From Peronospora farinosa (Eukaryota; Oomycota; Peronosporomycetes; Peronosporales; Peronosporaceae): DNA of 64,000 bases. The notes below the pieces were generated by a model. That model worked only from the letters and a program-made list of their open reading frames with translations, was not told the DNA's origin and did not search any database. Location of the stretch: contig CANTFK010000663.1 of assembly GCA_947646735.1 (NCBI GenBank), positions 1-64,000 of the forward strand. Reading direction: 5' to 3'. The position numbers were made by a program, and so were the translations under genes. How positions within the stretch are numbered: the first letter of the stretch is position 1; the number at the start of each line of letters is the position of its first letter. Below, one piece after another: positions 7,220-56,758 of the stretch.

Positions 7220-7604
7220 GCGGAGCAGACCAAGCCATTGTCTGACCTTTTGAAAAAGGATACATAATGGACTTTGTCGAAGAATCAAGAAGATTCGTTC
7301 ACATCAGTGAAGCAATCTCTTGTAGAGGCACCGGTCTTGGCATTGCCAGACGCGGATTAGCCCTTTAGCGTCGTCTGCGATGCAAGCAATTCTGCAATTG
7401 GCAGCGCGCTCTGCAGAAGGATGACAGCGGTATTGACCGTGTCATATCGTATCAGTCTCGGCTTTTAAAAGCTGAAGAGCTGAATTACCCTGTGCATGAC
7501 AAGGTGCTACTTTTAATTAAGTATGCCCTTGTAAAGTTTCGGATGCACCTCTTGGTCACCGAACCTTTTGTGGTTTATACGGATCACGCATCACTGCGGA
7601 TAGC
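7220..7604 (+). pseudogene. Gypsy family B RNase H relic
   Basis: Direct continuation of the family B pol. In shifting frames one can still read pieces matching the RNase H of element 3, such as the equivalents of FSVVGDASNFAIGSAL and FVVYTDHISLRT. Many stops and frameshifts are present. Similarity to element 3 ends at about 7604, so integrase and the 3' LTR are missing. The heavier decay here than in the upstream RT suggests an old truncated copy. Confidence 0.65.
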
Positions 7605-12285: not shown

Positions 12286-13645
12286 TCTTCTATATAATAA
12301 AAGAATTGTGTCCGTCCGTCCGTCCGTAGTGCTCCTTTTCCGGCATTCGGATTGGCTAATTTTACATTATTGGCTAATTTTGCATTGGCTGATATTGTAT
12401 TTTGCATATATGATACTATGAGCTGATTTTTCAAATATATAGTATAATTACTTTTGTCCATACTAATTGCATAGAGCTTTCGAACCTATCGGTCGGAGCG
12501 ACTGGCAGATCTAAATTCGATTTGACGAATTTTGTAATATTAATGCGAGCAGGTCTCCGTTACAGAATTCAGCTTCGAAAGGCGGCAAAAAGCTGTTTAA
12601 CACACCTACATTCAGACCCTTTAATACGTTTGCCATCGTGCTGTTTCTGGGAATTCGAATTGACTGATTTTGCGTTTTATATTCGTTCATATTCGCTAAT
12701 ATGCATTAAAAACGTATTTGATCGATATATTTGGATGATTGAAATAATAACAAATCTTATTTGTGAAATCGATAGGGTGAAGTAAGAATTATTTTAAGTA
12801 ATAAGTACCTATGAGCCTTGGGACGGATTCCCTTCGGTGGTGCAATGGTTTGCTTACCAAGTTTTCAGGTCTGTATAATTGGCACGGGTTCAATTCCCGC
12901 TGCCTGTTAAATTTGGACAAATTAGAAATTTGAGAATTTTTCTCAATCGAACTTTGGGTTGCTTGCGGTAAACACTTTCGAGTGCTAGTCGTTACTTACC
13001 ATTGCATTAAAACGAGAATCCTGCTCCCAAGCTTGCTTGGGTATCACATTGAATATCTTTTTCGGAAGGTGGTCAGTAGTAGTGCTATAACGGTAGGGTC
13101 CGAAGGCGTAAAGGTCCGTAATAACGGTAGGGCCCGTATCCATTCAATATGACTTCGTAATAAGGGACGCAAATCGGCTTAAGCCGTGGCCTCACACGGG
13201 CGTATTAGCATACCAATACGATTATTAAGGAAAAAACAAAGACCAATAAGCCAACTAGGCAGGCATAAGCCAAAAGCGAATCTCCAAATCCTCTTCCTGA
13301 AAGGGTTAAGGAGTAAAGCAAAAACCAATTCCAAAGGCCAAAAGCCAACTACCAACACCCGCAAGGGTTAAGGATATAGGCCAAACGCCTATATACACTT
13401 GATTCTCTAAAAATATTAAAATAGTGTACGTCCATCCATCCGTTTAAATGTTTTCGGCATGTAGATTGGCCAAATTTATATTTTGCAATAATTGGTTTGT
13501 GTCGCACTTTGCGTTAAGATCTCTACTACAGATTTAAGTCCTTATGTGGTGCTACAATTAAAGATGAAAAGCCCACGGTCGCGCCGAAATCGTCTGGACC
13601 GGGAGCGACGTTCTCGACAGCGTGCCAAGGTGATGGAGTAACAGC
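12286..13645 (+). mobile_element. Helitron 5' end fragment joined to gypsy element 1
   Basis: Starts A|TC with TCTTCTATATAATAAAAG and then GTCCGTCCGTCCGTCCGT, the same 5' terminus as the Helitrons at 22089 and 24456. The region 13150-13400 matches 24840-25000 (GGCCTCACACGGGCGTATTA and on). 13564-13641 encodes the first 25 residues of the RepHel-type ORF (MKSPRSRRNRLDRERR), matching the start of the autonomous copy at 25618. Similarity then stops and the sequence passes into the antisense ORF of gypsy element 1 at about 13645. The rest of the Helitron is absent here. Confidence 0.75.
12815..12910 (+). other. tRNA-like relic with A- and B-box motifs
   Basis: Contains TGGTGCAATGGTTTGC, which resembles a pol III A box, TTTTCA at the spacing of an anticodon loop, and ACGGGTTCAATTCCCGC, a near-perfect T arm with a B box. 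The acceptor stem does not pair, so it is not a functional tRNA. It looks most like a decayed tRNA-Glu(UUC) or a tRNA-derived SINE head. A related T-arm motif (GCGGGTTCCATTCCCGTGCC) sits at the comparable place in the Helitron at 24456. Confidence 0.4.
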
Positions 13646-13652
13646 GCCTGGC

Positions 13653-14917
13653 AGTGAGTCACAGACTCTTCGGGACCTCGTTGAAGACAACCTTGACGAA
13701 GCGGTTGATTACGAAAGTGACACCGTCTTTGTGGGACCCGATGGGTCCCCATTAGCCACCCTCACGGTGAAGATGACACTAGTCATGCACCGAATCCGTT
13801 CCCTGAACGTGGTGCTGCAGATGCGCTAACAGCGTTACGTGACCCGCCTGACGTATCATCAACGGTGACGGTTACCAACCCACTCGAAGAGCAGCAACAG
13901 CAGACCATCGACCAAGACGAAGGCGCCAAGCGCCGGACGAAGAATATGGCGAGGCTTCAGGAGCACCGACAGTACAGATTCAAACCACCTACGGTGGAAG
14001 AACGCCTAAAGGAAGCATCTGGGCATTCCCTTTCTGGTTGGACCATTGGGCCTGAGGCCATTTCTCCTGAGGATGTTGCCACGCGCACGGCACTTCGACA
14101 ACGATATCTGGAACCCCACATCACTACACAAAGCCAATACTTGGCACGCCTTAATAGGCAAGTGCGCGGTGCGCCAGTCCCTCCCATAAAGGGTGTTCCC
14201 ATCCTTCTGTTCGCGGGGGAAACCGAGGACGAAGAAGACACGGCTTTCAGCCGCTGGGCGCATTATGCGCGACGTTTAAGCAGCATATGGGCCCTACGGG
14301 CAAGTGCCGATGTGGCAGATGTTCGACTTGAGCGGAAGATGCGTTATGATTACGCTAAATTGAAGGCCCGGGGAAAATTGAAATCCCAACGAACGCATTA
14401 TGCGTCTGCTACCCAGCACCCCAATGTTTCGGCTACACCTGTAGCCGCGAGTCCACGACAGGCCGAGGCCGCTAACTCGCTTACACCCACCATTACTGGT
14501 GAGAAGCGTCAGCGCCAACAGGCTGACCCTGCGCACGACGCTCAAAACGTCCACGGCGTAGGCAATCCTGCCGAAGGGGAATCTCAAACTCCCATGAGTT
14601 CCACGACTCGGGATAACCCCGCCACTTCGCCAGATACTGGTTTTGACCATGGCGGCGACGCTTCTGCAGTAGACGCTCCACGTGGAACTGCAGGTTCCCC
14701 TGCGCATCGAGGAAAGGAGGAGGAGGCCGGTGTATCGGTACAAGCTCATGCCGAGCTTGTTCAAGAGGTGCGGTCCCTCCGTGCGGATATGCAGTCGATG
14801 AAATCTCGTCTTGAGTAACTGGAAGAGAGCCGAACCCGAGTGCAGGGTCAACTTGACTTGTTGGTGCAGATGCTTCGCCCCGAGACAATGCCGATGAGCT
14901 CGGCGCGAGCGCCTTAG
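13653..14917 (+). pseudogene. Antisense ORF of gypsy element 1, broken
   Basis: Counterpart of the intact 427-aa antisense ORF of element 2. Similarity starts at 13653 (SESQTLRDLVEDNLDEAVDY) after the Helitron junction, so the original start is lost. A one-base deletion near 13769 shifts the frame. The frame is then open from 13865 to a premature TAA at 14816-14818, and the homologous stop is at 14915-14917. Near 14545-14570 a 1-bp and a 2-bp deletion together keep the frame but replace the basic KRPRR motif of element 2 by NVHGV. The product is unknown. Confidence 0.7.
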
Positions 14918-18189: not shown

Positions 18190-18690
18190 TCCTCGACCTT
18201 AACCTGCTCTATACGCCAATGTCAATATTGACATCCAGTGAGTCACTATAACCAGTGACTTCACTAACAAGGTCATCGACCTTAACTTGCTCTATACGAG
18301 AGCCGATGTCATTACCGACATCCAGTGAATTGCATTTACAGCCAATATCACTAACAAGGTCATCGACCTTCTTGCTCTATACGAGAGCCGATGTCATTAT
18401 CGACATCCAGTGAATTGCATTTACAGCCAATATCACTAACAAGGTCATCGACCTTTACTTGCTCTATACGAGAGCCGATGTCATTACCGACATCCAGTAA
18501 ATTGCATTTACAGCCAATATTACTAACAAGGTCATCGACCTTCACTTGCTCTATACGAGAGCCGATGTCATTACCGACATCCAGTAAATCGCATTTACAG
18601 CCAATATTACTAACAAGGTCATCGACCTTAACTTGCTCTATACGAGAGCCGATGTCATTACCGACATCCAGTGTCTCCATATTACTTTGA
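18190..18690 (-). repeat. Tandem 87-bp (29-residue) repeats in element 1 pol
   Basis: About six copies of a unit reading DVGNDIGSRIEQVKVDDLVS followed by xIGCKCxSL on the minus strand, between protease and RT. The inner copies are nearly identical; the outer copies at the RT side are diverged (EVTGYSD in place of DIGCKC). In the fourth copy a deletion within EQVKVDD shifts the frame and ends the protease ORF at 18360. The same array is in element 2. Confidence 0.9.
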
Positions 18691-19286
18691 GTATCACTCA
18701 ACGGAGTACGTGACGTTCCACTAAGTGTCATTGAGCTCTGCTCGACACTATTATTGTTGACATCGGAGTTTATCAACTCAGACACTCCAATGTCCAGCAC
18801 ACTAACTGAATCAGTTAATGGCTCGCGCCAATAGCACTTTTGTTTTCTAGCGAAGGTGGGTTCATGACTCTCCAAAGCTTCGCTAGGAACATTGCGCGTT
18901 GCGCCTAAAGTTTTGGATCTCCAATCGATCCACGGCTCATGGCGTTCCAGCCAGGCCATACCGAGAATGAGATCATATCTCGAGTACAAATCTAGGACAA
19001 GACAGCGTTCAACGCTGTTGAAGTCTAAGAACTTCACACCTAAGTTCAACGGAACTTTAGGAACGGTGACACGTACACCTGTTGCGAGGCGCACGGTTAT
19101 ACTGTCACCCTCTTGCGCTTCTAGCACCTCAGCGTACAGCTGACTCCCTTCAAGGGAACGACGTCGGACATAATTACCTGACGCCCCTGAGTCAATTAAA
19201 ATTAACCATGGTTTCTCAAAACCCTTAACGGTTGCCGACACAACCAACAAGCCTGGCTTGTAACCTTTTTCTATGGAAGCATTCAC
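18360..19286 (-). pseudogene. Gypsy element 1 protease region
   Basis: Retropepsin that would process Gag-Pol. The active-site loop is ILIDSGASGNYVRRRS, followed by TVRLATGVRVTVPKVPLNLG and the C-terminal DLILGMAWLERHEPWIDWR. The ORF then runs into the 29-residue repeats and ends early through a deletion in the fourth repeat. Sequence identity to the element 2 copy (34805-36076) is very high. Confidence 0.85.
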
Positions 19287-25617: not shown

Positions 25618-28600
25618 ATGGAGAGTCCACGGTCACGACGAAATCGTCTAGCACGGGAACGAAGAGCACGCAAGCGTGCATTGGAAACCGATGATCAGCG
25701 GGAAGCACGACTACAGATTCAAAATGCTACCGAACGTGCGAGACGTGCAGCACGATCACATGATGTGCACATGCGATATCTCCGCAATAATCGCGAGGCA
25801 CACGCTGCGCGACGGGCAGAGCAATCAGAGAAAGTTGCTACTGTGCAGCGTCGCATTGATCGTAATGCGCACGCTGCACAAAGGGCAGAAGATCCCGAGG
25901 TCCCCCTGGCACGTCGCATAATAGGTGCAGACGCTCCAACACTGCGTCATGTGTTGCAAAGAATGAACGTGAGGTGTTAGTCGTGTCAAGCATTACATTA
26001 AATTGAAGAGAGAATTAAAGTAGCTGGGTCAACTCTGGGAAACCCGACTTTTACGATGTGCTGTGAACGTGGAAAGGAATTTAACATCCCACCGTTGGTT
26101 CCGCCACCGGAACCCCTCAACACATTATTGCATGAGCAAACACCACTTGCTAGGGCGTTTCGCAGCAATATTAGAGGTTACAATAATGCACTATCATTCA
26201 CGTCGCTTGGTGCCAAGCTGGATGACCGATTTGTGCAAGGAGGTGTATACACATTTAGGCTGCAGGGCGCTCTATATCATCGTATGGGTGCTCTACTGCC
26301 AGATGGAAGTCGAAATAAAAAATATGCTCAGCTGTACATTGCGGACTCCAATGCCGCCCTGAATAGAAGGATGACAATTTTCCCGTCACTGGATCGACGA
26401 GTTATGGGGGAGCTACAAGCAATGCTGGAAGAAGTTAATCCTTACGTTCAATTGTACGAGCAAGCCCGTCAACGTATGCACCATGATGGTACTTTAAATC
26501 TCGAGCTACGCCTGCTTTGCCTTAAGTCAAATGACCGTCGACGATACAATACTCCAACTGCTGACGAGATTGGTGCAATCATGGTCGGCGATGGTCATGA
26601 CGGCAGCATCTCTGACAGGGACATAATAATCAAGCGTCGAAGTGATGGTGGGATGCAGCGGATTTCAGCGTTGCATTCAGCATACACTCCGCTACATTAC
26701 GTCCTTTTATTTCCAGACGGGCGACAGGGTTGGACTTGAACGATGCCACTGCAAGGATTTGCATACAGAGAAGGGGATGGGCAAAGTTTATACGTGAACG
26801 ATGAAGTTGCTGTACGTGGAAGAGGAGGATCAAGCCGGATATCTCAGATGCAATACTCTTCTTATATGCTTCATCCTCGAGCATCTGGACAGCATTTGTT
26901 CTTGGCAGGACGTTTGCTGCAAGAATATATTGTTGATGCATGGGCATGTACGGAGCAAAATCGCTTGCATTTCATCTCCAGTCACCAAAGCGACCTGCTT
27001 TGTGAGCTGTATTCAGGAATTATGGATGCAATAAGTGACGATGATCATGATGCAGCATGAATAGGTCGTAAAATGATTCTGCCCTCCAGTTTTGCTGGCA
27101 GCGATCGTCAGATGAGCCAGCTGTACCAGGACGCCATGGCAATCGTGCGCAAATATGGCCGACCAGACCTTTTCGTAACCTTTACATGCAATCCGAAATG
27201 GCGTGAAATCAGAGCCGAGCTAGAACCAGGGCAACAGCCTCATGATCGACCAGAATTGGTGGCAAGATTGTTCAACCTCAAATTGCAGGAACTAATGAGA
27301 GACTTCAGCAAACGGAAATTTTTTGGAATAGTGGTCGGCAAAGTTTGGGTAATTGAGTTTCAGAAAAGGGGTCTCCCCCACGCGCACATCCTCATTATCT
27401 TGGATGAGGCTTCCAAGCTCCATACGCCGCAACAGATTGATTCGGCAGTCTCGGCTGAAATTCCTGACCCAGCCACCCATCCTGATGCATATGAGACGGG
27501 GACGCGTTGTTTGGTACATGGTCCGTGTGGCATAGACAAGCCCAACGCACCATGCATGGTGGAAGGAAAGTGCAGCAAGCGAAACCCTCGAGTGTTTGCG
27601 ACTGAGACCTCTGCCGATCATGACAGTTATCCAATTTACAGACGGCGTGACAATGGACGATATATTGAGGATGCAAGGGGCCGTCGTGTTGATAATCGAT
27701 GGATTGTGCCGCATAATTTGTACCTATCCTCTAAGTACAATGCGCACATTAACGTTGAGGTGAGTTGGAAGAAAATGATATTCCCTGTTCATTTTATACG
27801 ATCAACATAATGATACTGAGTAACGATTTGTTTTCGTGTAGATTTGTTCATCAATCTAGGCCGTCAAGTATGTCTTCAAATATGTATACAAGGGACACGA
27901 TCGCACGACGGTGGTGGTTCAAGATGTAAACGAAATTCAGCAATACATTGACGCTCGCTATGTTTCAGCTCCAGAGTCGTGCTGGCGCATCTTTGGCTTT
28001 AAGATGCATGATCACTACCCTCCAATTCAACGCCTGCAGGTGCATTTGACCGACCAGCAACAAGTTGTGTTTAACGCTAACGGTAGCTTGGTGGCTGCAG
28101 TGAACAATGAGCAAGCGCGTAAAACAACACTCACACAGTGGTTTGAGCTCAACCGCCTAAACATAGATGCCCAAGAGACAACTTCCTTGGATTTTCCGTC
28201 ACGATTTGTCTGGAACATAAACAGAAAACAATGGACGGTGCGACAACGAGGAAAGTGCGTCGGTCGTCTTTATTTTGTGAGCCCCAAAGCCGGAAATCGA
28301 TATTTTTTACGGACGTTGCTGACAACTGTGAAGGGAGCAAAATCTTACGAGGACCTGCGAGCATATAATGGCTTGCAGTACGAGACGTTTAAGGCGGCGT
28401 GGATTGTACGAGAACGACGAAGAATGGGAGCAGTGTCTACAAGAAGCAGCGGGGATGCAGAGTGGTGGTAAACTGCGATCCCTGTTTGTCACAATTTTAA
28501 TCCATGGACCGCCTGCTAACCCGCGCCAATTATGGGATATTTTTCAGCATCATTTATCGGACGATTTGGCGCATCGACTTCGCCAGGATGGAAATGCAGA

Positions 28601-29796
28601 GCCGTCATCTGACCAGATCACGAGTTTAACCCTTCACTTGATAGCAAATCTTTTGGCGCCTTTTGAGAAAACCCTTGCTGACTTCAGTCTGCCCACTCCT
28701 GCGTATCAAATGGAAGAGCCACAGGGAAATCGATTGATTGCAGAACAGCTGGCATTCAACAAAGATGTGTTGAAAGAAGAGGCAGAAAAAGAGGTGCAGA
28801 GTATGAACAAGGAACAGCTTCACATTCATCGTGAGATCATCAAATCCTGTAAGAAGGAGCAAGGAGATATTTTTTTCATTGATGGACCCGGTGGAACGGG
28901 CAAAACATATTTAGAGAATTTGCTTCTCAAGTCTGTGCGGGGTCTAGGACACATTGCGCTGGCAGTTGCTTCATCTGGAATTGCATCATTGCTTCTAGAT
29001 AATGGAAGCACCGCTCACTCTCGATACAAGATCCCAATTAATCTGAAGCCTCACTCTGTGTGCTCTATAAGCAAACAAAGTGATCTGGCAGGAATGCTAC
29101 GCCTCACGAAGCTAATTATTTGGGACGAAGCACCAATGATGAGTAAGTTTGCGTTTGAGGCCGTTGACCGGACACTTCGCGATGTCACCGATAAATCTGA
29201 CGTTTCGTTTGGTGGAATCACATTTGTGATGTGCGGCGATTTTCGCCAGATTCTGCCTGTTGTACCAAAAGGCATGCGTCCTGATATTGTTGCCGCGTCG
29301 ATTAAGGAGTCCTATCTATGGAGTTGTGTTCAAGTTTTCAAATTGCGTCAGAACATGCGCGCAAGTAATGATGAGCGAATTGAAAATCTCGGGAATCGCA
29401 CTTTCGCAGATTGGCTTTTAGCACTTGTAGAAGATCGGCTGGAAAAATTGGACGACGATCACGTCCAGTGTCCATCGTCTATGATTGTCCATAATAACAC
29501 GGTGGAAGAACTTTTAAACACAATATATGATGGTGTTGCAGATGTTGCTGAACATGCAAATCAGGAATACTTTAGCAGCCGGGCCATCCTTGCCGCCCGC
29601 AATGATGCTGTTGCTGAAATTAACATGGCGGTGCTAAACAGAATTGGGGGGACATATATAAATACTTGAGCGCAGATAAGGTGGACGATGAAGAAGGTGC
29701 AAATGTTTTGCCCACCGAATATCTAAACAGGTTGGAAGTGAGTGGGTGGCCACCTCATCGACTTAGGTTGAAAATTGGAACTCCAATTATGCTTTT
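25618..29796 (+). pseudogene. Helitron RepHel (replication initiator and PIF1-type helicase), decayed
   Basis: Encodes the rolling-circle transposase of the Helitron. N-terminus at 25618-25977 is Arg/Ala-rich with short repeats. Around 25978-26080 a cysteine-rich zinc-binding stretch is interrupted by stops. 26056-26739 and 26743-27057 are the conserved N-terminal part. The Rep domain at 27073-27759 has PDLFVTFTCNPKW and the HUH-type RGLPHAHILI. After an 82-bp intron, the tyrosine motif YVFKYVYKGHDR follows. The helicase at 28398-29669 has Walker A DGPGGTGKTYL, Walker B LIIWDEAPMM, GDFRQILPVVPKG and LRQNMRAS. Defects: stops near 25978, 26737, 27058 and 27857, and frameshifts near 28400 and 29650. 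The LTR insertion removes the end. Confidence 0.92.
27760..27841 (+). other. GT-AG intron in Helitron Rep domain
   Basis: GTGAGTTGG at 27760 and TTTTCGTGTAG ending at 27841. The upstream frame (from 27073) is at phase 0 here, and joining gives INVE followed by ICSSI, a TAG, then AVKYVFKYVYKGHDR. The intron brings the catalytic tyrosine motif into frame with the HUH motif. Unspliced, the frame ends at 27810. Confidence 0.7.
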
Positions 29797-30436
29797 TGTA
29801 GCGGGCTACACAGCTCTTTAGCCAGAGGAAGACTTTTGGCTGGAAGCCTCTTAGTTCTAGAGAACTAAATAGAGTTAAGGCTAAAAGCCACTTAGTTCTA
29901 AGGAACTAATTAAATGACTTAAAGTCACCCTGTTCTAAGGAACTAGGAAAGAGACTTTTAGTCAATTAAGCAATATGCTTAAGGTTCGGAGAACCAACGC
30001 ACAGAGTGCAAGAACAAGCTAGAAGATTAGGGGTTCAGAGAACCAACGCACGAAGTGCACAAGAGAACAAGTCAGAACGACTTGCGATCTCAAACTCAAA
30101 AGGAGAACTGATTATATTTATGCTTTAAGATTTTATGAATAGTCCTACTCTAAGTACACTACACTAGATTAATTACTATAATAGTAATTATTATATGCAG
30201 ACTTTGCTATTGGACGATGTATCGTCTAAACATCTGTGTATGATGTACTCAATACAGCGTTAGTGATTTATCGAATCCCAATCGATAAGATACGGTATTA
30301 CCGAATACCGTATTATAACGCTCATACTTAATACCTCTCTAAAGAGAAGTATAATAATGCATTATATGCAATAGAAAGGAGAGTTTAAGCGTAAACTCTC
30401 GGAAAGACGCTACAACCGTCGTGTAACCCCGTTTCA
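29797..30436 (-). repeat. 3' LTR of element 2 (family A)
   Basis: 640 bp, plus-strand ends TGTAGCGGGCTACACAGC and AACCCCGTTTCA. It disrupts the Helitron helicase directly at its outer end. The antisense ORF begins 112 bases inside from its inner end, so any antisense promoter in this LTR could drive that ORF. Confidence 0.92.
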
Positions 30437-30450
30437 CCCTCCCCCACCAG
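30437..30450 (-). promoter_or_regulatory. Polypurine tract of element 2
   Basis: On the minus strand the sequence CTGGTGGGGGAGGG lies immediately before the 3' LTR (which begins TGAAACGGGG on that strand). This is the expected position for the primer of plus-strand DNA synthesis. Confidence 0.7.
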
Positions 30451-30547
30451 ACTGACGTTCCCATAGAATGCCACTCGACATCTTTCCTCGTAGAGGTAGT
30501 GCTTTAGCGAACGTTTAAAACCTCACGGTTTGTTCACGGCACATAAC

Positions 30548-31831
30548 ATGACGCCTCCCGATAGTGAGTCACAGTCTCTTCGGGACCTCATTGAAGACGA
30601 CCTTGACGAAGCGGTTGATTACGAAAGTGACACCGTCTTTGTGGGACCCGATGGGTCCCCTTTATCCACCCTCACGGTTGAAGATGACACTCGTCATGCA
30701 CCGAATCCGTTCCCTGAACGTGGTGCAGCAGATGCGCTAACAGCGTTACGTGACCCGCCTGACGTATTATCAACGGCGACGGTTACTAACCCACTCGACG
30801 AGCAGCAACAGCGGTCCATCGACCAAGAGGAAGGCGCCAAGCGCCGGACGAAGAATATGACAAGACTACAGGACCACCGACAGTACAGGTTCAAGCCACC
30901 TACAGTGGAAGAACGCCTAAAGGAAGCATCTGGGCATTCCCTTTCTGGTTGGACCATTGGGCCTGAGGCCATTTCTCCTGAGGATGTTGCCACGCGCACG
31001 GCACTTCGACAACGATATCTGGAACCCCACATCACTAGACAAAGCCAATACTTGGCACGCCTTAATAGGCAAGTGCGCGGTGCGCCAGTCCCTCCCATAA
31101 AGGGTGTTCCCATCCTTCTGTTCGCGGGGGAAACCGAGGACGAAGAAGACACGGCTTTCAGCCGCTGGGCGCATTATGCGCGACGTTTAAGCAGCATATG
31201 GGCCCTACGGGCAAGTGCCGATGTGGCAGATGTTCGACTTGAGCGGAAGATGCGTTATGATTACGCTAAATTGAAGGCCCGGGGAAAGTTGAAATCCCAA
31301 CGAACGCATTATGCGCCTGCTACCCAGCAGCCTAATGTTTCGGCTACCCCTGTAGACGCGAGTTCACGACAGCCCGAGGCCGCTAACCCGCCTACCCTCA
31401 CCATTACTGGTGAGAAGCGTCAGCGCCAAAAGGCAGACCCTGCGCACGACGCTCAAAAACGTCCACGGCGTATGGGCAGTCCTGCCGAAGGGGAGTCTCA
31501 AACTCCCATGAATTCCACGATTCGGGATAACCCCGCCACTTCACCAGATACTGGTTTTGGCCATGGCGGCGACGCTTCTGCAGTAGACGCTCCACGTGGA
31601 ACTGCAGGTTCCCCTGCGCATCGAGGAAAGGAGGAGGAGGCCGGTGTATCGGTACAAGCTCATGCCGAGCTTGTTCAGGAGGTGCGGTCCCTTCGTGAGG
31701 AGAGGCAGACGATGAACTCCCGGCTTGCGTCCCTGGAAGAGAGTCGGACCCGAATGCAGGGTCAGCTTGACATGTTGGTGCAGATGCTTCGTCCCGCGAC
31801 AATGCCAATGGGCTCGGCGCGAGCGCCTTAG
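30548..31831 (+). CDS. Antisense ORF of gypsy element 2, 427 aa, unknown function
   Basis: Open reading frame on the strand opposite to gag-pol, between the 3' LTR and pol, overlapping the last 428 bases of pol. I chose the ATG at 30548 (MTPPDSESQSLRDLIEDDLD); the frame is open a little further upstream from a TTG at 30530. Visible parts: an acidic N-terminus, a central block (ATRTALRQRYLEPHITRQ; FSRWAHYARRLSSIWALRAS), a basic motif KRPRR that could be a nuclear signal, a Ser/Pro/Gly-rich stretch, and a C-terminal heptad-rich segment (HAELVQEVRSLREERQTM) suggesting a coiled coil. No gag, protease or envelope feature is recognisable. The same frame exists, damaged, in element 1. It may encode an accessory or regulatory protein of the element; this is inference. 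Confidence 0.7.
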   Translation: MTPPDSESQSLRDLIEDDLDEAVDYESDTVFVGPDGSPLSTLTVEDDTRHAPNPFPERGAADALTALRDPPDVLSTATVTNPLDEQQQRSIDQEEGAKRRTKNMTRLQDHRQYRFKPPTVEERLKEASGHSLSGWTIGPEAISPEDVATRTALRQRYLEPHITRQSQYLARLNRQVRGAPVPPIKGVPILLFAGETEDEEDTAFSRWAHYARRLSSIWALRASADVADVRLERKMRYDYAKLKARGKLKSQRTHYAPATQQPNVSATPVDASSRQPEAANPPTLTITGEKRQRQKADPAHDAQKRPRRMGSPAEGESQTPMNSTIRDNPATSPDTGFGHGGDASAVDAPRGTAGSPAHRGKEEEAGVSVQAHAELVQEVRSLREERQTMNSRLASLEESRTRMQGQLDMLVQMLRPATMPMGSARAP

Positions 31832-33007
31832 CGTCTATTTGGGACGGATCCCGATAAGGTTTTAGCATGGCGACATAGAACACAGGATGTGTACGCAATT
31901 TGCGCGGCAAGTTAAGCGTATACGCTGTGCCTTTCTTGGCAATGACATTAAAGGGTCCGATAAAGCGCGGACGCAACTTCGTCTTAAAGACAGCGGATAC
32001 TACATTGGTAGGTAGGTTTTTAGCATTTAGTAATACTTGGTCTCCGACCTCATAATCATTAATACAGCTTCTGCCTTTAGCATCTGCATATTCTTCTTGT
32101 TTATCTTGGCTATCAGCCATTGCGTCTTGCACATGTCGTAAGACATTTAGTCGCGTTGCGAGAAACGCATTTTCCTGTTTCTTAACAGTATCAGGGCTGA
32201 CATCAGCAAGCCGATCGGCAACCTCTCCCCCACCAAGCCCTGAACCACTCGGTGGTAGCGTTAACGGAACGCGTGGGTGTGTAAGACCATTCACATAGAA
32301 CGGAGTGTAGCCGGTAGAGGCGTGCACGGAGTTATTGAGAGCAAACTCAACTACAGGGAGCATAGCGCTCCATCGCTTAGGCGTTTCAACACAAACGCTC
32401 TTCAACAACGCGATTTACGCGTTCGGTTTGACCATCGGTCTGCGGATGATCCGCTGTGGACATGTCCAAACGGGTGCCCAGCACCTGGAAGACGGACTTC
32501 CAAAATTTACTCGTAAAACGCGGATCACGATCAGAAACAATTGCCACTGGCAAGCCATGTTGGCGAAACACCCGATCGATAAACAGCTCCGCTGTACCCA
32601 TACCATCGATCGATTCTGGGACAGCCGCTAAGTGACCATCTTGCTCAAACGGTCAACAAAGACCACAATACCTGTATTGCCCTGCGAATCTTTGGTAGGC
32701 CAAATACAAAGTCCATACTAATGGACTCCCAGCACCCAATGGGAATAGGCAAGCTAGCCAGCGGCGCTGCCGAATGGGGCGAGGGTTTCAACCGTTGACA
32801 CGTTTCACACGTGCGCACATATGTACTCACCCATTTGTATAATTTGGGCCACCAATAACTTTGGCATACTGCCCCATAGGTCTTTTCGCGACCCAAATGA
32901 CCACCGATGGCGGTGTCATGTACCTCATAGAGGATACGATACTTCAGGTCCTCGTCATGAGGAACTATAATATGCGGAGGATCCGCTACATCTGTACGAT
33001 AGTACAA
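31404..33007 (-). pseudogene. Gypsy element 2 integrase and chromodomain
   Basis: 32645-33007 has the HHCC domain (VHDTAIGGHLGREKTYG; YVRTCETCQRL) and SMDFVFGLPK with the first catalytic Asp. 32386-32601 has SDRDPRFTSKFW and HPQTDGQTERVNRVVEE with the second Asp and the Glu. 31404-32408 continues with the conserved linker, the GPY-type segment (RPRFIGPFNVIAKKGTAY) and a chromodomain (YLVKWRGYPESWNSWE), which in related elements guides insertion to chromatin. Frameshifts lie near 32400 and 32690. The last 428 bases are shared with the antisense ORF. Confidence 0.88.
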
Positions 33008-34752
33008 CAGCCCCTCATCGATAGAATATCGATGGAGGCTCGCACTAATCGTGCCGACAATTTAATGTCCGAGTCTTTAAACTCATCACTGCCGAGAGCA
33101 TGTAGCAACGCTATACAGTGATCATCTTTAGCATACGCCGTATGAATGAGATCTGTGATAGAAGACGACAACGTCGTCACATGAGCAAGCTCATAATCAG
33201 GTCTGCGTGACAACACATCAGCCAAAGCATTTTGCTTGCCCGGCTTAATTTCACCTCGAATTTATATTCGGCAAAGAATGACAGCCATCTGGCCATTCTC
33301 TGCGAGAGATGCGGCGACTGAGTCGCAGTGCGTAACGACGCATGATCGGTATAAATCACAAAAGGCTTTGAGCCCAGCAGATGAACTCTGAATTTGACCA
33401 GGGCATACTTCATCGCAAGTAGCTCTTTGTCATGAACTGGATAGTTCTTTTCTACAGCTTTCAGCTGGCGAGATTCAAAAGCGATTGCACGCTCACGGCC
33501 TTCATCATCTGTTTGTAACAGAGCACTGCCAATGGCAAAATCCGACGCGTCACAGACGACGCTAAACGGTCGATCAGGGTCTGGCAAAGCCAAAATAGGA
33601 TATGAAGAAGGCTAGCCTTCACCGCTTGAAAAGCATCCTCGTGCTCGGTCTGCCAACACCATTCCACATCCTTTTTAAGGAGATTGGATAACGGCCGATC
33701 CATATCAGCGTAATTCTCGCTATACTTGTGTAAGTAATTGGCAAGGCCAAGCCATTTACGCAAGTCCTTTTGAGACTGTGGAACAGGCCAATCGACTATG
33801 GCTTTGACTTTGGCGGGATCCGCTCGTAGGCCCCGCTTCGCAATGAAGCACCCTAGAAAAGGAATCTCTTCGGCCCCGAAGATGAACTTAGATGCATTAG
33901 CATATAATTTATTAGTGCGCATGCACTCGAGCACTGCTCGTAAATGAACAATATGGTTCTCAATATCTGACCGCCCATGTTCAGCTCGGCTATGGACAAA
34001 AATGTCATCAAAGTACGTCTGTGCATAACTTCAATGGGGTCGAAACAATTGCGTCACCAACCGGTTAAACGTAGCCGGAGCATTAGATAGCCCCTGGGGC
34101 ATCACTAACCACTCCCAGAGCATACCGCTCGGAGTACTAACAGCAGTAAGCGGAATATCGCTAGCTCGCATGAGCAATTAGTAATAACCATCGACTAAGT
34201 CGAGAGCACTGTACATGGTACAACCGACCATATTGTTCTAAAGAACATCCTTTCTAGGTATCGGTGTCTGTGCAGGTATAGTGGCCGCATTGAGCTTATT
34301 ATAAGCATGAACGATACGCCATCTACCATTTGGTTTCTTAACACAGAAAGTGGGTGTCGAGTGCGGGGATTTACTCTCACGCACCATGCCCGCCGCGTGC
34401 TTTGCACGAAAGAACTCGTCAATGACGTCACACTGTTCTTTGGGTAAAGGCCACTGCCGTGTTACACAGTATTTGGTTCCAGGAACCAAGTCAATTTCAT
34501 GACGTACACCCCTATCAGGTGGTAGAACCGACGGTGGATCGTGACATGGAATTCCCTAACTAAAGGATAGTAGGGATCTGAAGGGTTTTTCAGAATAGAT
34601 GCCCCACTACGTGCACTTAGTGCCGCTTTGGTATCTTCAAGGACTGTCTCATCGACAAGCGAGGATGAGTTCAACTCGAGGTTAGGTCGAATGACCACCA
34701 TATCGGATAGAGCACCTGCCTTCAAGGCCTGATGAAATTCATCCACAGACAT
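32986..34752 (-). pseudogene. Gypsy element 2 reverse transcriptase and RNase H
   Basis: 34462-34752 is the lead-in ([20 protein letters not shown]). 34238-34489 is the N-terminal RT ([35 protein letters not shown]). The catalytic motif is TYFDDIFVHS near 34000, preceded by an in-frame stop. 33461-33934 covers thumb and connection (LGLANYLHKYSENYADMDRP). 33177-33593 is RNase H with CDASDFAIGSALL, KELLAMKYAL and YTDHASLRT. At least five frame breaks separate these blocks. A 9-bp shorter run near 34545, compared with element 1, changes the RT lead-in. Confidence 0.88.
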
Positions 34753-34804
34753 TTCGTCTAGCTCTAAAAGAGCATTTAATGATGGGAGGGCCTCAAGGTC
34801 AACC

Positions 34805-36076
34805 TCACCATGTCACTCCGTTGACCAGGGTGTACAACTGGTCATTGACATTACTACGCGATAAAACAGACGCTTTGCGTCTCGCAGCCGCCATCTGGCG
34901 CCGCTGTCGTCTCATTGATGAGACCGTACTCTTCAAAGTACTTGGGATATTATCATCCCCAAGGTCAACAGACCCCTTGTCGTTTACTTGCCCTATGCGA
35001 GGGCCGATGTCATTACCGACACACAGTGGGTCACTAGTACCAGTGACTTCACTAACAAGGTCATCGACCTTCACTTGCTCTATACGAGAGCCGATGTCAT
35101 TATCGACATCCAGTGAATAGCATTTACAGCCAATATCACTAACAAGGTCATCGACCTTTACTTGCTCTATACGAGAGCCGATGTCATTACCGACATCCAG
35201 TGAATTGCATTTACAGCCAATATCACTAACAAGGTCATCGACCTTTACTTGCTCTATACGAGAGCCGATGTCATTACCGACATCCAGTGAATTGCATTTA
35301 CAGCCAATATCACTAACAAGGTCATCGACCTTCACTTGCTCTATACGAGAGCCGATGTCATTACCGACATCCAGTAAATCGCATTTACAGCCAATATTAC
35401 TAACAAGGTCATCGACCTTAACTTGCTCTATACGAGAGCCGATGTCATTACCGACATCCAGTGTCTCCATATTACTTTGAGTATCACTCAACGGAGTACG
35501 TGCCGTTCCACTAAGTGTCATTGAGCTCTGCTCGACACTATTATTGTTGACATCGGAGTTTATCAACTCAGACACTCCAATGTCCAGCACACTAACTGAA
35601 TCAGTTAATGGCTCGCGCCAATAGCACTTTTGTTTTCTAGCGAAGGTGGGTTCATGACTCTCCAAAGCTTCGCTAGGAACATTGCGCGTTGCGCCTAAAG
35701 TTTTGGATCTCCAATCGATCCACGGCTCATGGCGTTCCAGCCAGGCCATACCGAGAATGAGATCATATCTCGAGTACAAATCTAGGACAAGACAGCGTTC
35801 AACGCTGTTGAAGTCTAAGAACTTCACACCTAAGTTCAACGGAACTTTAGGAACGGTGACACGTACACCTGTTGCGAGGCGCACGGTTATACTGTCACCC
35901 TCTTGCGCTTCTAGCGCCTCAGCGTACAGCTGACTCCCTTCAAGGGAACGACGTCGGACATAATTACCTGACGCCCCTGAGTCAATTAAAATTAACCATG
36001 GTTTCTCAAAACCCTTAACGGTTGCCGACACAACCAACAAGCCTGGCTTGTAACCTTTTTCTATGGAAGCATTCAC
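34805..36076 (-). pseudogene. Gypsy element 2 protease region with tandem repeats, 423 aa open
   Basis: The open frame begins at an ATG at 36076 (MNASIEKGYKPGLLVVSATV), with the retropepsin active site ILIDSGASGNYVRRRS at residues about 29-44 and DLILGMAWLERHEPWIDWR at its end. A Ser/Asn-rich linker follows, then the 29-residue repeats, then a tail (SSMRRQRRQMAAARRK). This is the longest uninterrupted pol piece in the element. It would normally be part of a Gag-Pol polyprotein, so the ATG is probably not a true start. Confidence 0.85.
34985..35480 (-). repeat. Tandem 87-bp (29-residue) repeats in element 2 pol
   Basis: Five full units and one diverged unit. The unit reads DVGNDIGSRIEQVKVDDLVS then DIGCKCNSL; variable positions are N/D before IGCKC and D/N/Y after it. 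The unit next to RT is diverged (LCVGNDIGPRIGQVNDKGSV). The repeats are in frame with the protease, so copy-number changes would not break the polyprotein. Confidence 0.92.
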
Positions 36077-36122
36077 AGAACCACCTGGGGCTAAGCCCTG
36101 TTTAACTTTACCTCCTAAATAT

Positions 36123-37170
36123 TTAACAGAACTTAGTTCTTTCCCAGTAGGGCGCCCCGCGCCTACTGGGAGTTGACGTTTTCCCCTGCGGTGCTCGCCT
36201 TTTAGCTAGGAGCAGGGTTTCGGCTCTGCCGATTTGAACGTTGCTTTCGCAACGGACAGCTAGGGCGGAGATGCCTATTGCTTCCGCACATGTAACATCT
36301 ACGGATTTTACCTTGCTGCTCAGCAGCTTGAAGCTCAGCTTCTTCAGCATGGCTGAGGTCCATGGGTTCCGCCCTGTTAGAGGTATTTGATTGATACCAT
36401 GGCAGACCATATCGAGTAGATTTGAAAATTATTCAGCGTTAAACGCTATGCTTACTACCTCTTCGAAAGTCGAAGTCTGGACACGGAAAACTTCCGTTCT
36501 GGCGACCCCAGTGCGAAGACCTTCCATAAAAATGGTTACTCGGACTTCCTCTGCCAGTGGGTCCTGCTGCATAGCAGCAATGAGAGTTCTCAACTCTTGG
36601 ACATAGTCCGACAATTCTTTCTTACCCTGTCGGGTAGCTAGGAAGCGTGAGCGCACACGATATGCCTGATTAGGCGGTGCAAACACGCAAGTTAATTGCT
36701 TTTTAAGTATTTCCCACGTGGGAAATGCGGCATTTACAGAGACATCGCTCGTTAGAGCCCACTCTCTAGCTCTTCCACCGAGCTTAGAAATGGCCAGACC
36801 AACTCTTTGCTTATCTTACACAAGCATGGCGGCATCCATTGCCATTTCAACTTCTCGGATACAGAGGAGAAGATTTTCTCCCTCCTTTCCCTCAAAGGTC
36901 TTTACGTTTAAAACGAGTGGGCGAGCTTTTGGCTCTGCATCGGGCACAGGTACCGGGATTTACTGTGTAGGCGCAGCTGACGCTGCCTGGTCATGGACCT
37001 GCCCGAGGAGCGTTGCTTCATAACGCATAAAGGCCTCAAGACGAGCATTTAGAACCTCGGGGCCTTGGGCCAAAAGGCCTCGATCTGATCGGGCCCGACG
37101 AACGCAGATAGTTTATCTAGACGAGTCGTTGTGCCTCAGAGAGGTTATTTTGATTCTCCATTCTCACAGA
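36123..37170 (-). pseudogene. Gypsy element 2 gag
   Basis: Near-identical to the element 1 gag. The capsid core is at 36429-36686 ([40 protein letters not shown]). The CCHC knuckle reads CYMCGSNRHLRPSC in a second frame near 36280. The N-terminal part has a one-base deletion near 37120 compared with element 1, so the start region is out of frame. Stops are shared with element 1 (for example near 36810), which implies that both copies descend from an already defective gag or that these stops are bypassed. Confidence 0.82.
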
Positions 37171-37203
37171 GGGTCAGTCTTTAAAGACTCAGGTGTAGGA
37201 TTG

Positions 37204-37221
37204 ACTACAAGTGCTACCAAG
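37204..37221 (-). promoter_or_regulatory. Putative primer-binding site of element 2
   Basis: Minus strand TTGGTAGCACTTGTAGT directly inside the 5' LTR, matching the site of elements 1 and 3. Confidence 0.55.
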
Positions 37222-37862
37222 TGTAGCGGAGCTGCACAGCTCTTTAGCCAGAGGAAGACTTTTGGATGGAAGCCTCTTAGTTCTAGAGAACTAAATAGAG
37301 TTAAGGCTAAAAGCCACTTAGTTCTAAGGAACTAATTAAACGACTTAAAGTCACCCTGTTCTAAGGAACTAGGAAAGAGACTTTTAGTCAATTAAGCAAT
37401 ATGCTTAAGGTTCAGAGAACCAACGCACAGAGTGCAAGAAAAAACTAGAAGATTAGGGGTTCAGAGAACCAACGCACGAAGTGCACAAGAGAACAAGTCA
37501 GAACGACTTGCGATCTTAAACTCAAAAGGAGAACTGATTATATTTATGCTTTAAGATTTTATGAATAGTCCTACTCTAAGTACACTACACTAGATTAATT
37601 ACTATAATAGTAATTATTATATGCAGACTTTGCTATTGGACGATGTATCGTCTAAACATCTGTGTATGATGTACTCAATGCAGCGTTAGTGATTTATCGA
37701 ATCCCAATCGATAAGATACGGTATTACCGAATACCGTATTATAACGCTCATACTTAATACCTCTCTAAAGAGAAGTATAATAATGCATTATATGCAATAG
37801 AAAGGAGAGTTTAAGCGTAAACTCTCGGAAAGACGCTACAACCGTCGTGTAACCCCGTTACA
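37222..37862 (-). repeat. 5' LTR of element 2 (family A)
   Basis: 641 bp, plus-strand ends TGTAGCGGAGCTGCACAG and GTAACCCCGTTACA. Nearly identical to the 3' LTR at 29797-30436. Its outer end abuts the 3' end of an inverted Helitron (TAGGGTGTGTGCCCGTCG). Confidence 0.92.
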
Positions 37863-39654: not shown

Positions 39655-39774
39655 TTATATAGATTTGAGCAATTGACAGAGAAAGACGACTTTATCTGAC
39701 ACTAGTTTTGAAAAAGTACAAAACAATAACATTTGTTAGTCAATCGATTGCCACCACACACTGTCAACTACATC

Positions 39775-42700
39775 ATGCTGCGTCATGTGTCGTCTGCGTC
39801 AGTGCGACTGTGCACTCAGCATCTACACCATACCAGTTGCCGTAGCTTCTCATCGATTTTAAAGAGGGGTGACGGTTGCAAGTCTCTGCAGGTGGGCGAA
39901 ATGTATCACAACTTTACGTTAGAGCGAGTGGCGACTGTACCCGAGTACGGCGTGGACGCTCTAGAGCTGCGCCATGAGCCAACAAAGGCTAAGTATTTGC
40001 ATCTTGACGCCAAAGATCCTAACAACGTCTTTGCTATTATGTTTCGATCGCCGCCCAATAACTCGACGGGTGTCGCGCATATTTTGGAACACACGACGTT
40101 GTGTGGATCCAAGCGCTTCCCCGTGCGCGACCCGTTCTTTAACATGATTAAACGCAGTCTTAACACATACATGAACGCTCTCACAGGTGCAGATCACACC
40201 ATGTACCCGTTCTCGACTACCAACGCTAAGGACTGGCGCAATCTTATGAGTGTGTATCTGGACGCAGTCTTCTTCCCTAACTTGTCAAAGCTCGATTTCT
40301 TGCAGGAGGGACATCGACTTGAAATCAATGAAAAAAAGGATGGAGAAGGACAGCTTATGTATAAGGGAGTCGTGCTGAATGAGATGAAAGGAGTACTCTC
40401 GGACAGTAACAACCTCTTCGGTACGCGATTGCAACAGGAACTCATGCAAGGCAGTATCTACGAACATGTAAGTGGAGGCGACCCAAAGCATATTCCATCT
40501 CTTACGTATGAAGACCTCCGTGACTTTCACAATAAGAATTATCACCCGTCCAACTGCTGCTTTTACTCCTACGGTGACTTGTCACTTACGGATCACCTGG
40601 CTTATCTCGACCACGAGATCCTTAATAAGTTTGACTACCACGCTGAATCGGCGGCCATTAAAGTAGACACGGAGGGATTTAATTTGTACAAGACAAACTC
40701 GACAAATTCGGAGTTGATTGTTATTGATGGTCCTAGCAGCAACATGACCAGTGATGCTGCTGATCCCAACACGAAGTATTGTATGAGCAAGTTTGTCGAC
40801 GTGAAGTCTACAGACCCTTTCTCGACCTTTGTGTTGCGAATCGTGAGCTATTTGCTGACAAATGGACCGGCGTCTCCATTGTATAAAGCACTGATCGACT
40901 CTAATATTGCACAAGACTTTTCAGTTGGTACGGGATTCGACACATCCACGTACTACCCTACGTTCGGTGTTGGTGTAGAGGGTATTGAAGGTGGAGAAGC
41001 TGCAGTGCCTGCTATTCGCATAGCTGTGCACAACGCGTTAAAGAGAGTGGTTGCTGATGGCTTTGAGAAAGAACGAGTGGACGGACTTCTACATCAATTA
41101 GAGTTAAGTCTCAAGCATGTGACGGGAAACTTTGGGCTGCAGCTTATGCACGGCATAAGCTCCGTCTGGACTCATGGAGGAGACCTTCTTGAGAACTTGC
41201 AGCTGAATCCTTTACTAAAGCGTCTGGACGTCGAAATGGCTCGCGAACCGAAATTCCTTGAAAGTTACGTGCGGGATTACCTCATGCGCGATAATCTGCG
41301 CGAAGTCCAGATGCTTATGCTTCCTTCTGAGACTTTTGTGCGCGATCAGGAACGCCGCGAACAGGAGAACCTGGCTGCTACACTCATGCAGCTGTCCAAC
41401 GCTGACCTAGACCGTATCGCGCAGACCGCAAAGGAGCTTAAGCGATATCAGCAGAAGAAACAGCCTGTGGAATGTCTGCCCACACTAAATCTGAATGACA
41501 TTCCGCGCATTGAAGAAGGCAATTTTGACCATATCGACAAAACACAGCTTATCTCGACATTGGCGGAATTTGTGCGCGTACCTTCTACCAACGAAATTAC
41601 GTACTTGCGCCTTCTTTTTGATCTGGGAGCGCTGCCACAAGCGTACCATCGATACATAAACGTTTTTACGACAGTGTTTGGATCTCTGGGCACCTCGCGC
41701 TACGCTTACGATGAGCTTCCCACGATTATTTCAAACTGCAGCGGAGGCGTATCGTGCTCAGTAATGACGGCCCCATCGCTCACGGATGTTTTTGGTGAGC
41801 CCAGCGAACAATCACTTTTGCTGGAGACAATGTGTCTGCCTTACAAAGTGGACCAAACGCTAAGTCTTTTGCACGAAGTACTCACTGACACACAGTTTTC
41901 TAGTGAAGAAAACCTGCGCCAGCTGCGTCTTCTTTTGCAGAGTAGCGCATCTAGCGCTAGCAGCAGCATTTCGTCATCCGGCGCTGCCCTAGCTGCGACA
42001 CGCTCACGTGTTGGTCTCTCTCCTGCAGGTATGTACGACGAGTTATACAGCGGTTTAACGCAGATTGAGCAGCTCCAAAGCTGGGCACAGTGCTCCAATG
42101 ATGAGCTGCATCAGATTGCCTGTGTACTACAGGACATCGCGCGCATAGTGTTTTCACCCGCGAATCTGCGCCTGTCTGTTGTGACGGAGGACAAGCTTCG
42201 TTCTCAGGTAGAGCAATCCTTGGCGTCCAAACTTCTCCAGCCACTGGCTGGATCGATATCGATGGCAGACGCTGCGTCGCTAACGCTTGTAAACGAAGAG
42301 CTCAAGTTGCCTAGTGTGTCGACCAAGGACTATTTTGCCTTCCCCGTCTCGGTTAACTTTGTAGTGGAGACGCAGCCGTCTGTGTCATTTGCACACGAGG
42401 ATCACGTACCGCTCACTGTGCTGGCACAAATTATGTCGTCGTGTTATCTGCACCAGCATGTACGTGAGCAGGGCGGAGCCTACGGATCCGGCGTCTCTCA
42501 GAATGAGGGTTCCTTTTCGATGAGCTCTCATTACGACCCGAACACGTTCAAGACGCTTGACGCTTATGACGGTGCACGTCAATGGGTTGTCAATGAAGAG
42601 TTTTCGAACCGTGACGTGCAGGAAGCGCTGCTGTCGGTGTTTGCTAATGTTGACGCCCCAAAGACTCCGTCCATTAGGGGCCGAATGAGCTTCTTGCGTG

Positions 42701-42912
42701 GTATTACCAACGATATGCGCCAACGCCGCCGTGAACAGTACCTGTCATTGACGCGCCAAGACCTTGTTGATGTTGCGCGCAAGTACTTTCAAGAAGACAC
42801 GCCTGATACACGCACTGTTATTATCGGCAAGGATGGCGACGATCTTTACGAGTTCTCGGACAAGGGTTTCAACGTGCAGCGCTTTGCTTCTACAACTTCG
42901 TTAGTCAAATAG
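39775..42912 (+). CDS. PreP: Presequence protease, M16C metalloprotease (PreP/PITRM1), mitochondrial
   Basis: Zinc oligopeptidase that degrades cleaved targeting peptides and other short peptides in the mitochondrial matrix. 1045 aa, no intron, start at the ATG at 39775. The first 35 residues are rich in Arg, Ser and His without acids (MLRHVSSASVRLCTQHLHHT), typical of a mitochondrial presequence. The inverted zinc motif HILEH is at residues 102-106, and the third ligand is Glu203 in NEMKGVLSD. The C-terminal M16 domain keeps REQGGAYGSGVSQNEGSFSM, the substrate-contact region of the family. Length matches the usual 1000-1050 aa. It lies in a gene island right after the Helitron block and converges with the PX-RING gene, 174 bp between stops. 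The family call is firm; mitochondrial location is inferred. Confidence 0.95.
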   Translation: MLRHVSSASVRLCTQHLHHTSCRSFSSILKRGDGCKSLQVGEMYHNFTLERVATVPEYGVDALELRHEPTKAKYLHLDAKDPNNVFAIMFRSPPNNSTGVAHILEHTTLCGSKRFPVRDPFFNMIKRSLNTYMNALTGADHTMYPFSTTNAKDWRNLMSVYLDAVFFPNLSKLDFLQEGHRLEINEKKDGEGQLMYKGVVLNEMKGVLSDSNNLFGTRLQQELMQGSIYEHVSGGDPKHIPSLTYEDLRDFHNKNYHPSNCCFYSYGDLSLTDHLAYLDHEILNKFDYHAESAAIKVDTEGFNLYKTNSTNSELIVIDGPSSNMTSDAADPNTKYCMSKFVDVKSTDPFSTFVLRIVSYLLTNGPASPLYKALIDSNIAQDFSVGTGFDTSTYYPTFGVGVEGIEGGEAAVPAIRIAVHNALKRVVADGFEKERVDGLLHQLELSLKHVTGNFGLQLMHGISSVWTHGGDLLENLQLNPLLKRLDVEMAREPKFLESYVRDYLMRDNLREVQMLMLPSETFVRDQERREQENLAATLMQLSNADLDRIAQTAKELKRYQQKKQPVECLPTLNLNDIPRIEEGNFDHIDKTQLISTLAEFVRVPSTNEITYLRLLFDLGALPQAYHRYINVFTTVFGSLGTSRYAYDELPTIISNCSGGVSCSVMTAPSLTDVFGEPSEQSLLLETMCLPYKVDQTLSLLHEVLTDTQFSSEENLRQLRLLLQSSASSASSSISSSGAALAATRSRVGLSPAGMYDELYSGLTQIEQLQSWAQCSNDELHQIACVLQDIARIVFSPANLRLSVVTEDKLRSQVEQSLASKLLQPLAGSISMADAASLTLVNEELKLPSVSTKDYFAFPVSVNFVVETQPSVSFAHEDHVPLTVLAQIMSSCYLHQHVREQGGAYGSGVSQNEGSFSMSSHYDPNTFKTLDAYDGARQWVVNEEFSNRDVQEALLSVFANVDAPKTPSIRGRMSFLRGITNDMRQRRREQYLSLTRQDLVDVARKYFQEDTPDTRTVIIGKDGDDLYEFSDKGFNVQRFASTTSLVK

Positions 42913-53806: not shown

Positions 53807-54429
53807 TTAACTTTCCTCAAGAAGCCACAACTCAATTGGCACGTTCTGTTTGGGCATCAGTTTGGGGATGATCAGCGGCTGACATGTGGAGCTGCTTCCC
53901 AGTAGCTCAAACACATGTCGCCAAAAACCCGACGTAAAACGCGGATCCCGGTCCGATACTATGGACTCGGGCATCCCGTGTAGTCGATACACGTGATCCA
54001 GGAACAAGAGGGCAGCCTCTTTTCCTGAGATCTTGGTGCTACATGGTGCCAAATGCACCATCTTGCTCAGTCTCTCTACAAAGACGACGAGCCCCGTCCT
54101 GCCTTTATGGTGAGGCGGTAAGCCAAACTGACCGACTTCCAACATTCAGTTGGAATCGGCAGTGGCTTCAGTGGCGTACTGTTCGAAGGTGCAGGCTTTA
54201 TGCGCTAACACTCTTCACAAGAGCGAATACAGTTGGCCACCCACCGATATAGGTGGGGCCACCAAAATTTCTCTGAAACTCGTAAGAATGCATTTTCACG
54301 GTCCAGATGCCCACTAGATGGCGCATCATGGCACTCGTGAAGTATCATCAGCTTGAGATCTGTGTCATGAGGGACATAGATTCTCAAGGGATCACAAGGT
54401 GACAGGCTGATGCCATAATAGACCACCAC
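53807..54429 (-). pseudogene. Gypsy element 3 integrase, truncated
   Basis: 54205-54429 has the HHCC zinc-binding part (HECHDAPSSGHLDRENAF; NCIRSCEEC). 53807-54145 has FVERLSKMVHLAPCSTKISG and SDRDPRFTSGFWRHVFELLG with the second catalytic Asp. The DHPQTDGQTE block, which holds the Glu, is garbled by a frameshift (LIIPKLMPKQNVPIE). Similarity ends there. Confidence 0.8.
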
Positions 54430-56429: not shown

Positions 56430-56758
56430 GACCTTTGACCTGGAAGAAGGTGTCGTTGCTATCTCAGCTAACGCACTCCTTCCAACCGTACCAGGAAGTC
56501 AAGTGCCACAAGAACCGCGCTCATGGCTCTGTGCCGGTTCTTGTGGCGCTTGACTTCCTGTCAGCCCACCATCAACTGCCACAGGCTCTCGGCTCTGTGC
56601 AGGACTATTGGACGCATGACTACCTGTCATCGTCCCATTCACTACACCAGTCATTTCGATCTGGGTAGGAATATGTGTCACCTAACTTTCTGTCAGGGCA
56701 CTTTTAACTACACCACTCCTTTCGAGCTGGGTAGTTCCTGGTGTCGATTGACATACCG

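Follow-up and report, generated by a model that had tools for sequence, protein, structure and literature searches.

Does a long open frame that runs against gag and pol in a Gypsy element encode a protein, or is it an accident of the opposite strand? The question is raised by an element in a stretch of 64,000 nucleotides of Peronospora farinosa (assembly GCA_947646735.1, contig CANTFK010000663.1, positions 1 to 64,000 of the forward strand), which was analysed at its full length and is called the window here. The frame translates without a stop into 427 residues, as an earlier note on this DNA had reported, and it is a real protein-coding gene of a chromodomain Ty3/Gypsy family. The frame goes beyond chance because selection is seen at the codon level, with a six-frame control, and because homologues 30–91% identical are found. 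The features of the locus are collected in Table 1.

Table 1. Features of the antisense gene and of the elements that carry it (positions in the window)
Feature	Position	Strand	Basis or remark
Antisense gene, 427 aa	30548..31831	+	Open frame, copies, dN/dS
Damaged copy of the antisense gene, element 1	13638..14914	+	Genome match and comparison with fetched copies
Gypsy element 2	29797..37862	- (gag-pol sense)	8066 bp; LTR pair 98.4% identical over 641 columns
3' LTR of element 2	29797..30436	-	640 bp; identity to the 5' LTR ends at 30436
5' LTR of element 2	37222..37862	-	Comparison of the LTR pair
Leader, LTR to antisense ATG, 111 bp	30437..30547	+	Starts with the polypurine-tract complement
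INR+FPR core promoter motif, weak candidate	30471..30484	+	Three mismatches to the consensus scanned
3' end of pol (SH3-like integrase end and chromodomain)	31404..32408	-	Shares its last 428 bases with the antisense gene
Chromodomain	31446..31601	-	Pfam PF00385, E 2e-12, frame residues 270-321
Folded core, codons 79-250	30782..31297	+	Predicted; pLDDT 86 when folded alone, 52 sequences
Linker with KRPRR, codons 286-365	31403..31642	+	Predicted disordered; faces the chromodomain, without visible constraint in the antisense frame
Coiled-coil helix, codons 369-414	31652..31789	+	Predicted; opposite a low-complexity pol linker

Elements in the window

The window contains two copies of one Ty3/Gypsy family, elements 1 and 2, both on the minus strand, and a tblastn search of the window with six homologues finds relatives of the antisense gene in these two elements only. 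The 3' LTR of element 2 had been thought to reach 30547, but the identity between the two LTRs ends earlier, and the complement of the polypurine tract, ccctcccccaccag, follows directly past 30436. The antisense ATG is located 111 bp inside the element, behind this complement, and pol, which runs on the minus strand to its stop at 31404, shares 428 bases with the antisense gene. Damage to the copy in element 1, which had been noticed first, consists of a changed start codon, frame-breaking deletions and an in-frame stop.

The description of gag and pol as full of frameshifts is right for the copies in the window but not for the family, in which pol is a single open frame of 1,558–1,645 codons in 4 of the 20 full-length copies fetched. 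A frame of 318–361 codons is found at the gag position in 15 of these 20. The gag and pol pieces of one copy match Pfam models of Retrotrans_gag/Ty3_capsid, protease, reverse transcriptase and RNase H, followed by the integrase zinc-binding domain, the SH3-like end and the chromodomain. LTR pairs are 94.4–100% identical in the 22 of 26 fetched loci that have two comparable LTRs, and an exact 5-bp target duplication is present at 14 of the 26, from which we infer that the family was active in the recent past. The ends of element 2, when compared, have no matching 5-bp duplication, in contrast to these 14 loci, which is perhaps the result of recombination between copies.

Other features of the window are an array of an 87-bp unit (34900–35634 and 18284–18844), which is located within the protease-bearing frame, encodes a repeated unit of 29 residues and has unequal copy numbers in elements 1 and 2, and a second Gypsy family at the inverted positions 4905–7335 and 54392–57957. 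Frames at 26056–29669, which are in pieces, are taken by us to resemble a Helitron replication/helicase protein, and the intact frame of 1,059 residues at 39733–42912 presumably resembles a metalloprotease of the presequence-protease type.

Copies of the antisense gene and selection on its protein

The antisense gene has 101 matches in its own genome (46.85 Mb; the best candidates were scored and a few copies are counted twice), and 46 copies were fetched, which are the 40 highest-ranking matches and six lower-ranking ones. Start codon, unbroken reading frame and stop are all kept in 28 of the 46, namely in 15 of the top 20, 13 of the next 20 and none of the six of lower rank. The frame is therefore not broken in most fetched copies; breakage in most copies is what the earlier note would have counted against a gene. 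An LTR adjoins the antisense gene in all 27 loci fetched with their flanks. Intactness of young copies is weak proof, and therefore the kind of changes was used as the test.

In the part outside the overlap, where the earlier note had proposed to measure dN/dS, the NG86 ratio is 0.199 (0.13–0.29) over 285 codons of 40 ungapped copies, six gapped copies and element 1 being left out, and it is not near one. In the six-frame control on the same DNA, four other frames give 1.25–2.43, and the fifth gives 0.289 but has 7 stops per copy. A GY codon model on a fixed tree, fitted to the 33 unique sequences among the 34 copies that are stop-free in the non-overlapping part (stop-bearing copies were dropped), yields an omega of 0.406 and a kappa of 4.3 at a lnL of -2685.7. 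With omega fixed at 1, the best lnL over the kappa values tried is -2708.5, which is worse by 22.8 log units. The changes were also placed on the branches of a tree of 39 unique copies and read against a neutral N/S of 2.24, for which the mutation spectrum of that stretch was used. Internal branches carry 41 silent changes, 19 replacements and no stop, and terminal branches carry 108 silent changes, 107 replacements and 8 stops. A gene that matters during the multiplication of the elements and decays once they are inserted leaves this pattern.

The three genes can be compared in the same 20 copies, where frameshifted copies were kept and broken codons skipped. Mean dN/dS is 0.164 for the antisense gene (non-overlapping part), 0.277 for pol and 0.459 for gag, and the tightest stretches of pol (codons 572–858) are at 0.04–0.10, below the antisense gene. 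The first two thirds of the antisense gene are under purifying selection, which is tighter on average than that on the whole of pol or gag.

The same layout is present in a second family of the same genome, L055, which has an open antisense frame of 430 codons, 54% protein identity to the window family, and the same LTR end and leader length of 111 bp. Outside the overlap, the comparison of L055 with the window family gives a dN of 0.325 and a dS of 1.56, a ratio of about 0.2 at a high dS. The stretch fetched for L055 has no open minus-strand frame of at least 120 codons, and its pol is therefore broken.

Predicted structure of the antisense protein

AlphaFold, run with 28 sequences, predicts a confident core at about residues 82–246, a coil of 46 residues at 369–414 and disorder in the rest of the protein. 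The features that had been read from the letters are found again: the N-terminus is acidic, with 19 D/E against 4 K/R in residues 1–78, the basic motif KRPRR occupies residues 304–308, and the C-terminal heptad region corresponds to the predicted helix, with pLDDT blocks of 88–96 over residues 371–410 and lower values at its ends. The core has 30 K/R and 23 D/E among 168 residues. A KRPRR match with no more than one substitution is found in just 17 of 44 long proteins, so that a putative nuclear signal of this kind is not well conserved.

The lack of resemblance to gag also holds, with an hhalign probability of 0.2%. A Pfam search of P0001 gives no domain above the Pfam cut-off, and the sequence and fold searches return no convincing known fold and no relative of known function. 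Constraint along the protein tracks the predicted structure: dN/dS is lowest in the core (codons 79–246, 0.116, 0.07–0.20), followed by the N-tail (0.31) and by the part of the linker outside the overlap (0.79, 0.30–3.15).

Overlap of the antisense gene with pol

In the overlap the two genes seem to share their constraint by region. Opposite the antisense linker, the chromodomain part of pol has a dN/dS of 0.116 (0.05–0.24), and the linker itself gives 4.2 within the family, that is, no constraint, a value which we take as a by-product of the overlap phase. The stretch of pol that faces the coil is a Ser/Ala/Pro-rich linker with a dN/dS of 0.65 (0.22–2.67), and the coil gives 0.54 (0.17–1.85; upper bound 1.72 in one estimate) within the family, both intervals including 1. 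Since the linker is unconstrained and the interval of the coil spans 1, the last third of the protein does not stand out as constrained within the family. It is the comparison between families that supports the coil, which there has a dN of 0.40 and a dS of 1.39 (L055 against the window family). The dS of pol is not clearly lowered in the overlap (0.065 vs 0.072, P 0.33), and of 5000 synonymous recodings, 290 have an antisense frame that is open throughout the overlap by chance.

The phase of the overlap is fixed, with the third codon position of pol opposite the second position of the antisense gene, and a constrained pol therefore predicts second-position changes in the antisense frame opposite the chromodomain. 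Among 17 homologues, with the window copy as reference, a single change at the second position suffices for 340 of 552 differing residues in the linker (62%) and for 340 of 1390 in the core (24%); the homologues come from related elements, and hence these counts are not independent and the P values computed from them come out too small. Four Phytophthora proteins pooled give 57/124 in the linker and 95/423 in the core, and P0146 of P. fragariae, which is outside these four, has a weak footprint (11/39 against 16/114). In the structure model, the coil and the chromodomain each appear opposite a disordered stretch of the other gene, and we propose that the two overlapping genes may coexist because each would be disordered where the other is structured.

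Leader and candidate promoter

In a comparison of one fetched copy with L055, the leader is 82% identical without gaps, against 75% for the final 350 bp of the LTR and 66.5% for the non-overlapping part of the frame, and a promoter or some other cis signal may lie in it. The oomycete core promoter elements are given as YCAYTYY for INR and MWTTTNC for FPR (PMC3599244); the pattern used in our scan was a general consensus of the two. The candidate motif is located in the leader, not in the LTR. Its score is equalled by 14.6% of shuffles in the window copy, by 0.3–3.1% in four other copies and by 96.7% in L055, where the motif fails.

Relatives in other species

Relatives of the protein are found in Peronospora effusa (91%), P. 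matthiolae, P. destructor, P. farinosa, Hyaloperonospora arabidopsidis and H. brassicae, and in Phytophthora citrophthora, P. ramorum, P. fragariaefolia, P. nicotianae and, weakly, P. fragariae. They are annotated as unnamed or hypothetical proteins, and the libraries searched contain no named relative outside the oomycetes. These other species are known here from protein records alone. One such record, P0111 of P. citrophthora, carries RRVTPLHPPPP at residues 4–14, which is the antisense reading of the LTR end and the polypurine tract in 2 of 3 copies shown; the window copy reads RRVTPFHPPPP, one residue different, in a frame other than that of the antisense gene. The peptide occurs in just 3 of 146 proteins, two of which are inexact or of unnamed source, and it indicates, with one protein as basis, that the antisense gene adjoins an LTR in P. 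citrophthora.

From the protein records we infer that the gene is placed opposite the end of pol, in the same layout, in other downy mildews and in Phytophthora, which would make the arrangement old. The antisense gene is thus probably old in the elements of Peronosporaceae. In the gene model of P0135 (Phytophthora fragariaefolia, 696 aa), the homologue is preceded in the same direction by another stretch, which we take to resemble an integrase end, and either the prediction is a fusion or the family is laid out differently.

Comparison with known antisense genes and Gypsy groups

Antisense extra genes are described from plants and a fungus, and their function is still sought, according to PMC7264820. 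The closest kind is the aORF-3R of plant Ty3/Gypsy elements (Grande gene23, RIRE2 and Retand; TRP28/PF04195), and the analogy to Grande and Retand drawn in the earlier note is borne out in position by the accounts in PMC7264820 and PMC11963269. The oomycete gene is antisense to gag-pol and placed between pol and the 3' LTR, with the pol overlap in addition, and it has the conservation and the selection of this class (28 of 46 fetched copies intact, dN/dS 0.16–0.20). The protein of Grande gene23 is described as nuclear, and the transcription of its gene as driven by an upstream promoter (PMC7264820, PMC11963269). Retand proteins carry TRP28, and Retand is a non-chromovirus lineage with 2.9–6.6 kb from pol to the LTR (PMC11963269), unlike the oomycete element, which has the chromodomain PF00385. 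TRP28 (PF04195) gives no Pfam match at E up to 10 with 24 homologues or at E up to 1 with four proteins, in searches where the HMMER filters drop very weak matches. The antisense gene is in the aORF-3R class by position and outside the Retand family.

An antisense gene of an LTR element outside plants is brtn of Boty, in Botrytis cinerea (PMC7264820, PMC8365987). It is fungal, not oomycete, and it is likened here by description alone. The HBZ protein has an acidic tail and a C-terminal zipper. No bZIP is among the Pfam matches of the oomycete proteins at E up to 10, and the likeness to HBZ is an analogy only. HBZ is encoded by an antisense retroviral gene of HTLV-1 that is read from the 3' LTR side (PMC11963269).

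Among Gypsy groups, Chronos of the Peronosporales has a chromodomain at the end of pol, as here, and a second RNase H of the plant/archaeal type (PMC5348765). In the one copy of the present family considered, Pfam shows one RNase H (PF17917/PF17919), with 103 unmatched residues before the integrase. The word "antisense" is absent from the main text of the Chronos paper (PMC5348765), and in searches of open-licence papers no oomycete description of such a gene came up among the titles and abstract beginnings listed.

Possible functions of the antisense protein

The antisense gene is the third gene of a chromodomain Ty3/Gypsy family of Peronosporaceae, an extra frame on the other strand that fills the space from pol to the 3' LTR and overlaps the chromodomain end of pol. 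We propose that a short antisense mRNA would be made from a promoter that is located within the 3' LTR or just inside it. The protein, which may self-associate by its coiled coil, combines an acidic tail, a compact core, a basic motif of the KRPRR type and a coil, a combination that would suit a nuclear accessory protein. It might bind DNA, RNA or chromatin of the element and tune expression or integration, and this role would resemble the proposals for the proteins of Grande gene23 and Retand TRP28. That the protein has such a nuclear accessory or regulatory role is in our judgement an even call. A wider reading is more tentative, and we lean somewhat against it as a whole: the folded core may be of a kind so far undescribed and the protein an old family of its own, the third gene would predate the split of Peronospora and Phytophthora, it would share its DNA with the chromodomain on the other strand through complementary order and disorder, and the protein would be a nuclear trans-acting controller that is convergent with HBZ and Grande gene23.

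The protein could instead act within the particle or the pre-integration complex, as a nucleic-acid chaperone, in nuclear import or in the choice of targets together with the integrase chromodomain, which we consider rather unlikely. Its constraint is comparable to that of pol, the gene is found beside gag and pol in copies with LTR pairs up to 100% identical, the element carries a chromodomain, and a like function is discussed for the plant antisense frames in PMC7264820; however, the sense RNA would be a simpler source of such a protein, antisense expression uncouples it from gag-pol, and no sequence relation to gag is detectable. A suppressor of small-RNA silencing, which would counter the dsRNA formed with gag-pol RNA, is improbable. 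The overlap of 428 bases between the genes would lead to dsRNA, a consequence of antisense transcription named in PMC7264820, but no convincing Pfam family or solved fold matches the protein.

Capture of a host gene by the element (transduction) would fit with the lack of a named relative outside oomycetes in the libraries searched, yet it is very improbable for a gene with 101 matches in one genome (some counted twice), an adjacent LTR in 27 of 27 loci and families in three genera. Least credible is that the antisense RNA alone matters, with the open frame an accident or a shadow cast by pol. The linker behaves in this way, being unconstrained in the overlap where pol dominates, but pol covers just one third of the frame, and the other two thirds have a dN/dS of 0.16–0.20 and no stop on internal branches, and between families dN is far below dS and the homologues keep the protein.

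The oomycete gene is an antisense extra gene in an independent eukaryotic lineage, carried by a chromodomain element in about a hundred copies, in at least two families of one genome and in three genera. For annotators, such proteins stand as unnamed or hypothetical genes in the sets of downy mildews and Phytophthora. The overlap with pol is a clean case of two genes that seemingly take turns in constraint, and the codon-level evidence that the protein matters makes the role of retrotransposon antisense proteins testable.
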